Positions 25,721 through 57,309 of a stretch of 64,000 nucleotides of DNA are shown piece after piece (positions within the stretch are counted from its first letter, which is position 1; every line of letters starts with the position of its first letter). Where the stretch lies: assembly GCF_023913515.1 (NCBI RefSeq), contig NZ_CP099391.1, positions 3,534,001 through 3,598,000 on the forward strand. The letters are read 5' to 3'. Position numbers and translations under genes: made by a program. Source of the stretch: Natronococcus sp. CG52. GTDB taxonomy: Archaea; Halobacteriota; Halobacteria; Halobacteriales; Natrialbaceae. The notes under the pieces were generated by a model that saw nothing but the letters and a program-made list of their open reading frames with translations, did no database searches and was not told the origin of the DNA.

Positions 25721-25905
25721 CGTCCGACGGAGTGTCCCCGCAGCAGCGTCGCTTCTCGAGTGCGTCGAAGTCTTCCTCACTCGTAGATCGACCGCCCTCG
25801 GTAGTGGCCGGACAGCGCGCTGTTCCGCTCACCGGCGTTCCCACTCGTTCTACGGCGACGACGTCTATGAAAAGAGGTAAACACTCCCCCGTGTATCACC
25901 AATTC

Positions 25906-26289
25906 ATGAAGGAGTACAAGATGCGCCGCGGTGAGTATCTCGAGGAGCGAATCCCCGACATGGAGGCCACTGTCGAGGAGTACTTCGGCCCCATTACGGA
26001 GACCGAGGAGTACAAGGGAAGTGACCTGTTCGTCATCGGCGAGCCGGACAACCCCGTCTTCGAGAAAGTCGTCGTCGGTACCATCGAGTACTCGGGCAAG
26101 AAGGACAAACTCGGCGTCGAGTTCTACGAGCGCGACCCCACCGAACTCGGCCCCGACGAACTCGAGGCCGCCGGTGACGCCGTCGACGCGAAGAACGACT
26201 TCCTGCTCGAGGCGACCGGCCGCGACGCCAAATCCCGTCGCGAATCGATGAAGCGGACCGTCGAGGACGACCCGGACCACGACTTCTGA
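25906..26289 (+). CDS. DUF5611 family protein
   Basis: 127 residues. Starting MKEYKMRRGEYLEERIPDM, the sequence continues with GPITETEEYKGSDLFVIGEP and KLGVEFYERDP, matching a family present in nearly all haloarchaea. It has no membrane segment and no known catalytic motif. The ATG at 25906 is chosen because homologues typically begin at that Met; an in-frame ATG at 25867 would add 13 residues. A block of hairpins begins 26 bases after its stop and may act on the 3' end of this mRNA. Confidence 0.8.
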   Translation: MKEYKMRRGEYLEERIPDMEATVEEYFGPITETEEYKGSDLFVIGEPDNPVFEKVVVGTIEYSGKKDKLGVEFYERDPTELGPDELEAAGDAVDAKNDFLLEATGRDAKSRRESMKRTVEDDPDHDF

Positions 26290-26314
26290 AGAACGAACTT
26301 TTACGCTGTCGTTC

Positions 26315-26609
26315 GGAAGACGCTCGGCGTCTTCCGTGACTGAGCAAATCGGAGATTTGCGAGGTCCGCGAAACCTTCGGTTTCGCTTGATGACGAGACG
26401 CCTTCGGCGTCTCGAACCACGTGCGGTCGCTTCGCGACCGCACTCGGTGAAATCTCGAGAGAGCGCAAAGCGCTCTTTTCGACTGGGAGATTCCGGAGGA
26501 ATCGCTTGCAGTCGGCGCGAAGTCGTTCGAAACGGCTTCGCCGTTTCGTGATGCCAAAAACCGGAGATTTTTGAGCACGCCGACGACCTCGCGGGATCTT
26601 CGATCCCGC
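26315..26609. repeat. Array of ten small palindromes with three-base loops
   Basis: Ten inverted repeats: 26315-26335 (9 bp, loop TCG), 26344-26360 (7, GGA), 26368-26386 (8, TTC), 26394-26414 (9, TTC), 26421-26443 (10, TTC), 26460-26476 (7, AAA), 26489-26503 (6, GGA), 26528-26548 (9, TTC), 26555-26573 (one mismatch, GGA), 26591-26609 (8, TTC). The stems share no common sequence, while loops are mostly TTC or GGA, which places the constraint on structure. In RNA the C-UUC-G loops would be stable. It could serve as a transcript end, a processing region or a structured RNA. Confidence 0.85.
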
Positions 26610-26699
26610 TCAGCTTCGATGAAAAGCACACCTCCCTCCGTTCCGAACGCGTAACGTTCTCCACACCGATCGTCGGCTCGCTCGCGGTAAGTATCGTAT

Positions 26700-26755
26700 A
26701 GCCGCCTGCCCTTCCCCGGGTCAGGCGGCTCACCGCATTTCTCGGTGAGCCGCCT
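26700..26755. promoter_or_regulatory. Two mutually exclusive hairpins sharing one arm
   Basis: agccgcctg (26700-26708) can pair with caggcggct (26722-26730). The overlapping arm 26723-26735 can instead pair, perfectly over 13 bp, with 26743-26755 around a seven-base loop. The two pairings cannot coexist, as in attenuators. The element ends about 100 bases before the ATG of the small membrane protein; no T-run follows. A TATA-like gtatcgtata precedes it at 26691-26700. Confidence 0.5.
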
Positions 26756-26857
26756 CCCGGCCATAGCGGATGTCCGGTTACCGATTCTTGAGCGAGTTCG
26801 AGCAGCCGGCGGCGAGGTTCGAAACGGCTATTGGAGGGTCGTCGAACTAGACAGGTA

Positions 26858-36252: not shown

Positions 36253-37293
36253 CTATTCTTCGAACGACAGGACGAGCGCTGCACCCTCTCGCTCGAACGC
36301 GGTTCCGAACGCCGCCGACAGCTCTCGCATCCGGTTTCGAGTCCAGGCCGCCGCTTCCGGCCCCGCTTCGTGGACGGCGCAGTCGTCGATCTCGGTTGGA
36401 TGGAGCCGAAGTTCGGTCGGTTCGCCGTCCTCGGTTACCGCGAGCACGAACAGGAAACTCCGGTCGTTTCGCAGACGGGAGTCGACCGCGTAATCGTCGA
36501 CGAAGTCGCCCGCATCGTAGATGATCGGGGACCCCTGGTGAACCTCGATTCCGTGGAAGACGTGGGCGCTGTGGCCGTGGACGACGTCGACGCCCTCTTC
36601 GATCAGCCAGCGGCCGAACTCCCGAAACGACTCGGGCGGCTCCTCGACCATGTTTGGCCCCCAGTGCAGCGAGGCGACGAGCAGGTCGGGATCCGACTCG
36701 CGTGCGCGCTCGAGGGCGTCTCGAACTCGCCGCTCCGTCGCCGCGCTCTCGACGGCGTCGTCGGACTGCGTCCGACCGTTCGAGTCGCGTCGCGACTCGC
36801 TGATCTCGATCCAGGCGGTCCCCGGCGACTCCGCGTCGGCCGCGAACTCGGGCGTGTTGTCCGTGAATGCGACGACCGCGATCTCGAGGCCGCCGACCGA
36901 AACGACCGCCGGTTCGAGCGCCTCGTCGAGCGTCTCGCCCGCACCCGTGCGTGCGATTCCCGCTTCGTCCAGACGGTGTAGCGTGTCGCGCAACGCGATC
37001 GCCTCGTAGTCGAGGACGTGGTTGTTCGCCAGCGCGCAGGCGTCGACGCCGGCGCGTTCGAGGGCGGGCACCGCCCAGTCGGGATCCGCGCGGAAGTGAA
37101 ACGGTCGGTGAGTTCGCTGCCACCGCCGGCCCCGCCTCGAGAGCACGCACTCGAGATTGATGACCAGCGCATCCAACTCGCGAAGTCGCTCGAGAACGGT
37201 CCCCCACACCGCGTCGGCGGGACGGCGTCGCTGACGGTCGTCGACGACCCGTCCGAGCATGACGTCGCCCGTGAAGCCGATCCGACGGGACAT
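36253..37293 (-). CDS. CapA-family (poly-gamma-glutamate synthesis-type) metallophosphatase-like protein
   Basis: 346 residues. The calcineurin-like core is seen as FTGDVMLGR at 7-15, INLECVLS near 45, LANNHVLDY near 88 and HGHSAHVFHGIE near 237-248. Family members include CapA/PgsA, but many archaeal copies act elsewhere; no capB or capC genes are adjacent and there is no signal peptide, so a cytoplasmic phosphoesterase is more likely than capsule synthesis. Divergent from the moaE gene. Confidence 0.85.
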   Translation of the reverse strand: MSRRIGFTGDVMLGRVVDDRQRRRPADAVWGTVLERLRELDALVINLECVLSRRGRRWQRTHRPFHFRADPDWAVPALERAGVDACALANNHVLDYEAIALRDTLHRLDEAGIARTGAGETLDEALEPAVVSVGGLEIAVVAFTDNTPEFAADAESPGTAWIEISESRRDSNGRTQSDDAVESAATERRVRDALERARESDPDLLVASLHWGPNMVEEPPESFREFGRWLIEEGVDVVHGHSAHVFHGIEVHQGSPIIYDAGDFVDDYAVDSRLRNDRSFLFVLAVTEDGEPTELRLHPTEIDDCAVHEAGPEAAAWTRNRMRELSAAFGTAFEREGAALVLSFEE

Positions 37294-56187: not shown

Positions 56188-57309
56188 TTACTGCGGCCAG
56201 CGCTCCGCCGCTCGCCGATAGAGCTCCGCACAGCGCTCGAGCACCGCGATCGAAACGCTCTCGTCGTCCGTGTGCGCCTCGCCGGGCTCCGCGGCTCCAC
56301 AGACGACGCACTCCGTCCCGGCCGCCGCGAGCCAGCCGGCGTCGGTCGCGTGCGGCTTCGTCACGAGCGCCGGCGAGTCGGGCTGGACGGCGGCGGCCGC
56401 CTCGAGCACGGTCCGGGCGAAGCCCGCGTCCTCACACCGCATCGGCGGTAGATCCTGATCGATCACCCACTCCACGCCCGCGAGATCCTCGACGGACTCG
56501 AGGGCGACGCGCTCGCCGGGGACCGTCCGTTCGTCGACGGTGATCTCGCAGCGATCGGGAACGACGTTCATCGCCGTTCCGCCCTCGATCTCCGTGACGA
56601 CGACGCTGCCCTCGAGCGTTTCGCCGCCGACCTCGACGGCCGGCGGCTCGAGCTTTCGGACGACGTCGACGGCGTCCGTCGCGCGGTAGATCGCGTTCTC
56701 GCCGGCCTCCTGCTCGCTCGCGTGGGCGCGCTCGCCGCGGGCCGTGATCGTGCTTCCGCGGCGTCCCTTGTGGGCGACGGCGACGTCGGTGACGCCGGGC
56801 GCCGAGTACCCCGTCGATCCCTCGCCGACGATCGCGTAGTCGGGCGCGAATCCCTGATCGATGGCGTGACGAGCGCCGACGCCGCCGACCTCTTCGCCGA
56901 CGAAACTCGCGAAGACGAGTTCTCCCGCCGGCCGTTCGTCGCCGGACTGCGTCCGGCTGCTCGAGGTGCGTGGCACCTCGCTGTCCCGGAACGCGAGCGC
57001 CGCCGCGGCGACTGCGCCCTTCATGTCCGCCGTGCCGCGTCCGTAGAGGCGGCCGCCGCGCTCCTCGAGGGCGTACGCGTCGCCGGCGTCGAGCTGCGAC
57101 GCGGCCGGTTCGACGACGTCGTGGTGGCCGACGAGTGCGAGGGTTTCCGTCCCCGCTCCCTTCCGGGCGATCACGTTTCCGGCGCCGTCTCGGGTCACTT
57201 CGGCCGCGGTCTCGCGGCGAAGCCACTCCTCGAGGAAGTCACCCGCAGCCGTCTCGTCCTCGTGGCTCGGAATCGCCACGAGTTCACGCGTTAGATCGGT
57301 AACCGACAT
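56188..57309 (-). CDS. M20-family metallopeptidase/deacylase, second gene
   Basis: 373 residues. ALVGHHDVVEPA near 59 with GHHD in place of the usual GHxD, GRGTADMKGAVA near 93 and SFVGEEVGGVGA near 134 supply the zinc and catalytic residues. RGERAHASEQ marks the lid domain. Probably an acyl-amino acid or peptide hydrolase. Its start lies 113 bases from the divergent PIN-ATPase gene. Confidence 0.86.
   Translation of the reverse strand: MSVTDLTRELVAIPSHEDETAAGDFLEEWLRRETAAEVTRDGAGNVIARKGAGTETLALVGHHDVVEPAASQLDAGDAYALEERGGRLYGRGTADMKGAVAAAALAFRDSEVPRTSSSRTQSGDERPAGELVFASFVGEEVGGVGARHAIDQGFAPDYAIVGEGSTGYSAPGVTDVAVAHKGRRGSTITARGERAHASEQEAGENAIYRATDAVDVVRKLEPPAVEVGGETLEGSVVVTEIEGGTAMNVVPDRCEITVDERTVPGERVALESVEDLAGVEWVIDQDLPPMRCEDAGFARTVLEAAAAVQPDSPALVTKPHATDAGWLAAAGTECVVCGAAEPGEAHTDDESVSIAVLERCAELYRRAAERWPQ

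Follow-up and report, generated by a model that had tools for sequence, protein, structure and literature searches.

Behind a protein-coding gene of Natronococcus sp. CG52, ten short palindromes follow one another within about 0.3 kb, and the locus raises the question of what kind of element such an array belongs to and what it may do at the end of a gene. The window analyzed here is a 64,000-nucleotide stretch of the genome, to which positions refer. The palindromes, each with a three-base loop, are present at 26314-26609 as the initial annotation had described them; nine are perfect, one contains a mismatch, and the loops agree. The upstream gene (25867-26289, plus strand) encodes a DUF5611 protein (PF18446, Pfam E-value 3.4e-24). 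Its TGA stop codon at 26287-26289 is the gene end that the element follows, and the first hairpin starts 24 bases 3′ of this codon. Nine perfect palindromes with a 3-nt loop and arms of at least 6 bp were counted in the region 26291-26640, whereas 1000 dinucleotide shuffles averaged 0.2 and never exceeded 2. When arms of at least 7 bp are required, 8 of the 20 triloop palindromes of the window fall in the 0.3 kb of the array.

The hairpins are arranged in two groups between conserved blocks. Block A opens the element on the plus strand with its 5′ outer arm, CGAACTTTTAC, at 26294-26304, which contains a T4 tract (26299-26302). Five hairpins follow at 26314-26443, where most copies have one: hairpin 1 (26314-26336, 10 bp arms, TCG loop), hairpin 2 (26344-26360, 7 bp arms, GGA loop), hairpin 3 (26368-26386, 8 bp arms, TTC loop), hairpin 4 (26394-26414, 9 bp arms, TTC loop), and hairpin 5 (26421-26443, 10 bp arms, TTC loop). 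The 3′ outer arm of block A, GGTGAAATC (26446-26454, plus strand), pairs with the T tract through one T·G wobble. A second, optional group of five occupies 26460-26609 and consists of hairpin 6 (26460-26476, 7 bp arms, AAA loop), hairpin 7 (26489-26503, 6 bp arms, GGA loop), hairpin 8 (26528-26548, 9 bp arms, TTC loop), hairpin 9 (26556-26572, 7 bp arms with one C·A mismatch, GGA loop), and hairpin 10 (26591-26609, 8 bp arms, TTC loop). Three further blocks lie downstream on the plus strand. Block B, GATGAAAAGCACACCTCCCTCC (26618-26639), supplies on its minus strand one of two T4 tracts, and palindrome P2 (GAACG-CGTAA-CGTTC, 26645-26659) separates it from block C (26663-26688), which is weakened, reading CACACCGATCGTCGGCTCGCTCGCGG against a consensus of CACATCGGTCGTCGGCCCGCTC; the match to our sequence model R1 covers 26618-26683. 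Block D (26701-26765) contains a 13-bp palindrome (26723-26735/26743-26755). The conserved blocks thus span approximately 26292 to 26765, beyond the palindromes originally noted.

Searching the window against Rfam 15 at gathering thresholds returned no match, and no tRNA or tmRNA was found in it. Long open reading frames cross both large copies of the array, the one described above and a second one described below, but hairpins of unequal arm length (7 to 10 bp) keep no frame, and we judge a protein-coding reading of the block to be probably spurious. A different palindromic element does occur within predicted reading frames. It has the pattern GTCG[CT]CGGACTGCGTCCG[GA]C.G.TCGAG, with a second, variable palindrome next to it in most copies, and is found twice in the window (36757-36799 and 56938-56980) and at C1:299551, 826017, 897686, and 1699853 elsewhere in the genome (L259-L264). 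All six copies lie inside predicted open reading frames, in the same frame and orientation, encoding approximately SSSRTQSGD. At least one match was present in 44 of 101 Natrialbaceae genomes, and a reversed control pattern gave none. This element recalls the in-frame palindromic elements of Rickettsia (PMC10969869).

Comparison across genomes supports well the view that the ten-hairpin array is a member, with an enlarged middle, of a dispersed modular palindromic element found at 3′ ends of genes in Halobacteria. In its usual form the element has one hairpin, and the order is gene end, TTTT tract, hairpin, AAAA tract, and GAT[G/C]AAAAGCACTCCTCC, after which additional blocks come with palindromes of their own. 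Its 5′ part consists, after the gene end, of the block A 5′ arm (CGAACTTTTGC or variants), CTGC, hairpin P1, TCG, and the block A 3′ arm (GCAAAACTTCG or variants). The optional second hairpin group comes next, followed by block B (GAT[G/C]AAAAGCACTCCTCC[C/T]TCC) and P2, and the 3′ part is formed by block C (CACATCGGTCGTCGGCCCGCTC), palindrome P3, and block D (GCCTGCCCTYCCCCGGGT, a palindrome, and TCCCGGCCA). The simplest copies have a single hairpin at the P1 place, where the window copy has five in addition to the five at the optional place. Between the stop codon and block B, 91 other copies carry from zero to six perfect triloop hairpins, and the window copy is among the largest observed. 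In alignment A2 and at further aligned loci, the base after GAT in block B appears to track the outer stem, with GATG accompanying a C·C mismatch beside the T tract and GATC occurring where these positions are paired.

The whole array occurs a second time in the same genome, 629 kb away and 3′ of ilvE, with 87% identity. Identity between the two begins just past both stop codons and stops at GATGAAAAGCACNCCTCCCTCC in block B; the block A 3′ arm of the second copy has a perfect GTAAAA in place of the wobble-containing arm of the window copy. The same search of the genome returned approximately 20 partial matches, and related pieces occur in all nine genomes of the genus. An exact search for the end motif in 84,980 species genomes recovered 45 stretches, all in Natrialbaceae, among them Natrinema, Haloterrigena, Natrialba, Natronorubrum, Natronolimnohabitans, Halovivax, Natronococcus, Halopiger, Saliphagus, and other genera. 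Using a sequence model built on blocks B-C, we found 15 copies in the Natronococcus sp. CG52 genome and matches in 120 of 292 sampled Halobacteria genomes, made up of 65 of 74 Natrialbaceae and 55 of 218 genomes from other families, where the matches were weaker. The order of parts in these other families is identical and plain by eye. The suggestion that such blocks are seen in haloarchaea is borne out by this wide distribution. We found no published name or description of the family in the open-access papers searched.

The element begins close to gene ends, with the T tract starting no more than approximately 10 nt past the stop codon of the upstream gene. This gene is on the same strand as the element in 79 of 92 cases, and in 102 of 117 in a larger set, counts that use a simple gene finder based on codon-position GC with heuristic gene calls and that, like our other counts, include partly orthologous loci; the downstream gene may point either way. 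Two copies sit directly 3′ of tRNA genes, which implies that the position of the element does not depend on translation. On an annotated plasmid record one copy lies 3′ of purF, in sense. Another plasmid copy lies between divergent genes, and the exceptions, some of them not located at a gene end, belong mainly to an AT-rich/plasmid subfamily (L039, L040, L057, L066, L075, and L076). This subfamily starts with ACTAC[AG]..TGC, ends near CTGTACT, is often away from gene ends, and may be a mobile form. Its terminal inverted repeats looked promising by eye; a systematic check yielded only six, with inconsistent pairing.

Orthologous loci of close relatives show the element both present and absent. 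The ilvE copy is missing from G004, a congener with 98% protein identity, and from six further readable congeners. The G004 site can be followed on both flanks, and the element starts at the stop codon, where the ilvE copy was recently gained. This one filled/empty site compared shows no target duplication. The DUF5611 locus of G004 contains a weaker array of a different makeup, along with an orthologous block D in which one pair is compensated; in three further congeners the array is missing. The gyrB-gyrA intergenic region provides a natural on/off series over close relatives. Among 69 Natrialbaceae loci (L146-L215), 24 carry the element and 45 lack it; the genes are separated by 166-419 nt in the former and by at most 59 nt in the latter. 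The gyrB stop codon is TAA in 19 of the 24 loci with the element and in 8 of the 45 without (p = 1e-6), which suggests that the 5′ boundary of the gained unit includes the stop codon. In a wider count, genes bearing the element end in TAA (38), TAG (15), or TGA (2), with TAA or TAG thus in 53 of 55, as opposed to other genes, where TGA is the stop in 154 of 303.

The proposal that selection acts on folding is supported by the pattern of substitutions. The outer arms of block A co-vary across 40 distinct arm pairs from several families, including CGAA/TTCG, CAAC/GTTG, CCAA/TTGG, CAAA/TTTG, CGAC/GTCG, CCA/TGG, GCA/TGC, and GTA/TAC, and the arms containing the T tract pair as TTTTGC/GCAAAA, TTTTAC/GTAAAA, or TTTTTC/GAAAAA. 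At arm positions 1, 2, 4, and 10 of 11, none of 2000 shuffles, which retain the relatedness of the sequences, reached the observed pairing. Since the same co-variation occurs at unrelated loci and in several families, descent alone is an unlikely source. The outer stem is otherwise paired, but a C·C mismatch commonly interrupts it one or two positions away from the T tract. The P1 stems differ by compensated changes, with several pair types at most levels, and 229 of 282 element palindromes are perfect, with few one-sided intermediates.

Selection on loop identity, the other half of that proposal, fails as it was worded. The loops recur within the window copy, as had been noted; between copies, stem types recur but loops change. 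The stem GTGCGGTCGC carries TTC, GAA, AGA, GTA, TGC, TCC, GGA, and AA loops in different copies, and between the window and ilvE copies the stems are kept while loops switch from TTC to GGA and from TTC to GAA. On the basis of this free exchange on one stem we reject selection on the identity of the loop. What is kept is a loop class, GNA or TNC closed by C-G. The elements show a 15-fold enrichment of triloop palindromes, with no clear enrichment for loops of 4 to 8 bases; the closing pair is C-G in 206 of 218 element triloops, and the loop is GNA or its complement TNC in 138 of 218, compared with 65 of 260 outside (p = 2e-17). C(GNA)G mini-hairpins of DNA are exceptionally stable (PMC4686876).

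Alternatively, the palindromes could be part of a structured RNA, a 3′-UTR or intercistronic element whose sense transcript folds and, for example, protects the upstream mRNA or sets the gyrB:gyrA ratio. The sense orientation, the strong fold, and the location between gyrB and gyrA, which are closely spaced when the element is absent, would agree with this. However, GNA loops show no strand preference (66 sense, 73 antisense), and both strands fold about equally well. Mismatches show no sense-strand excess of G·U (G·T) over A·C (14 against 10 in one count, 3 against 4 in P1 stems). With these results and the lack of an Rfam match, an RNA folding on one strand, one of the original suggestions, is not favored, and we consider this explanation improbable. 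Arms that co-vary around C(GNA)G-class loops inverted as often as not point to a folding unit that is DNA-like, and the palindromes were probably shaped as DNA, or by a DNA process, although the RNA may also fold. One such process is hairpin-templated DNA synthesis, which might have made and perfected palindromes that are retained merely for lying between genes. The near-perfect arms, the scarcity of one-sided intermediates, the inverted loops, and the preference for the most stable DNA triloops are as expected of such a by-product of mutation; such a by-product would leave unexplained why the intervening blocks B, C, and D are conserved over families and why the elements keep fixed locations at the ends of genes, and we regard it as distinctly improbable. 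The same synthesis may explain the multiplication of hairpins, though not the element. Sites for a nucleoid protein or another protein that binds DNA structure would accommodate the strand symmetry of the loops and the recurrent C·C mismatch of the outer stem, yet neither a candidate protein nor a spacing rule was found; we consider this explanation highly improbable.

The leading alternative is a selfish, miniature mobile element of MITE or REP type that is confined to gene ends, where it persists as a harmless insertion and serves no host function. Its presence or absence between close relatives, its copies across chromosomes and plasmids, and the gain behind ilvE all speak for it. Against it stand the empty-site comparison at ilvE, where no target duplication was seen, and the consistent sense orientation relative to the upstream gene, although integration targeted to stop codons could mimic such a bias. 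Conserved blocks and retention at gene ends over several families also fit less well. In addition, a search with PF01797 for a Y1 (IS200/IS605-type) transposase found no match in the Natronococcus sp. CG52 genome, while control genomes including Haloferax volcanii did match. A purely selfish element is, in our judgment, unlikely.

Like REP/BIME sequences, for which roles in transcription termination and mRNA stability have been proposed, the palindromes are short, extragenic, grouped, and present in many copies per genome (PMC3733652). They differ from REP/BIME and the associated RAYT system in their many stem types, C(GNA)G-class triloops, and long conserved blocks between palindromes (PMC3733652). 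By eye, no GTAG head was noticed at the hairpins, and the linkers of the window array (TGACTGA, GAGGTCC, TTGATGA, AACCAC, and others) share no common GTAG or CGTC. Without a Y1 transposase in the genome, the evidence does not support a REP/RAYT system. Prokaryotic MITEs are similarly small, dispersed, polymorphic between relatives, and equipped with inverted arms, and one of them, SPRITE of Streptococcus pneumoniae, resembles a terminator (PMC10969869). Unlike MITEs, the present element is sense-anchored behind genes in several Halobacteria families, with no transposase or target duplication found (PMC10969869); as to terminal repeats, the block A arms pair but lie inside the element, and the ends of the plasmid subfamily pair inconsistently. 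In copy number and polymorphism the element is MITE-like, which does not imply transposition. The IS605-derived PATEs of Haloquadratum are likewise haloarchaeal, non-coding, and palindrome-bearing, but their palindromes are near-terminal in IS605-type elements, in contrast to the internal, modular ones here, which occur with no Y1_Tnp match (PMC3119063). Termination sites of Haloferax volcanii also have a T stretch behind genes and hairpins near some sites; their motif is a T stretch ending in C, with no repeat family and no blocks B-D (PMC7237163). We conclude that the element belongs to a known kind, dispersed extragenic palindromes, in a form that is not described in the open-access literature searched.

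A bare U tract is the usual description of an archaeal terminator. The corresponding feature is present here in the T tract conserved in block A close to the stop codon. Of the functions suggested for the array, a transcription end agrees best with its location behind genes, and we infer that the element is best read as a semi-mobile 3′-end element, a terminator or insulator. That this hairpin-expanded, dispersed element of Halobacteria serves to end and insulate transcription has, in our estimate, about an even chance of being correct. The U tract immediately 3′ of the gene would release RNA polymerase, and the two further T4 tracts of the antisense strand (GCTTTTCATCGAAGTTTTGC in the usual form) would halt transcription from the opposite side. 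A two-way barrier is suggested by the TTTT start directly behind genes and tRNAs, in sense, together with these two antisense tracts. Either extruded from the DNA or folded in the nascent RNA, the hairpins would pause or roadblock the polymerase or protect the 3′ end. Their high stability would permit template switching and exchange between copies, which would correct arms, invert loops, and multiply hairpins, and could have turned a one-hairpin form into the ten-hairpin array. In Haloferax volcanii a T stretch (T5C) terminated 95% and a tested hairpin sequence 59% (PMC7237163). Against a terminator, the tract has just four T, and the hairpins lie 3′ of it, unlike those of bacterial intrinsic terminators. 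No clear promoter was seen after the element at gyrB-gyrA, so read-through may be needed there. In its fullest form the terminator reading describes an unnamed modular palindromic family of several Halobacteria families that arrives with a TAA stop at gene ends, acts as a two-way transcription barrier through extruded C(GNA)G DNA hairpins, and grows by template switching at the DNA level, as a mobile, self-repairing terminator; this whole chain is unlikely to be right as it stands.

If real across archaeal families, a co-varying, partly mobile gene-end element would provide the transcripts of haloarchaea with defined 3′ ends and account for gyrB and gyrA being close together in some relatives and apart in others. 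The same places with and without the element, and with one to ten hairpins, would serve as natural replicas for the role of hairpins at archaeal gene ends, and the copies would document the evolution of perfect palindromes and inverted loops at the DNA level.
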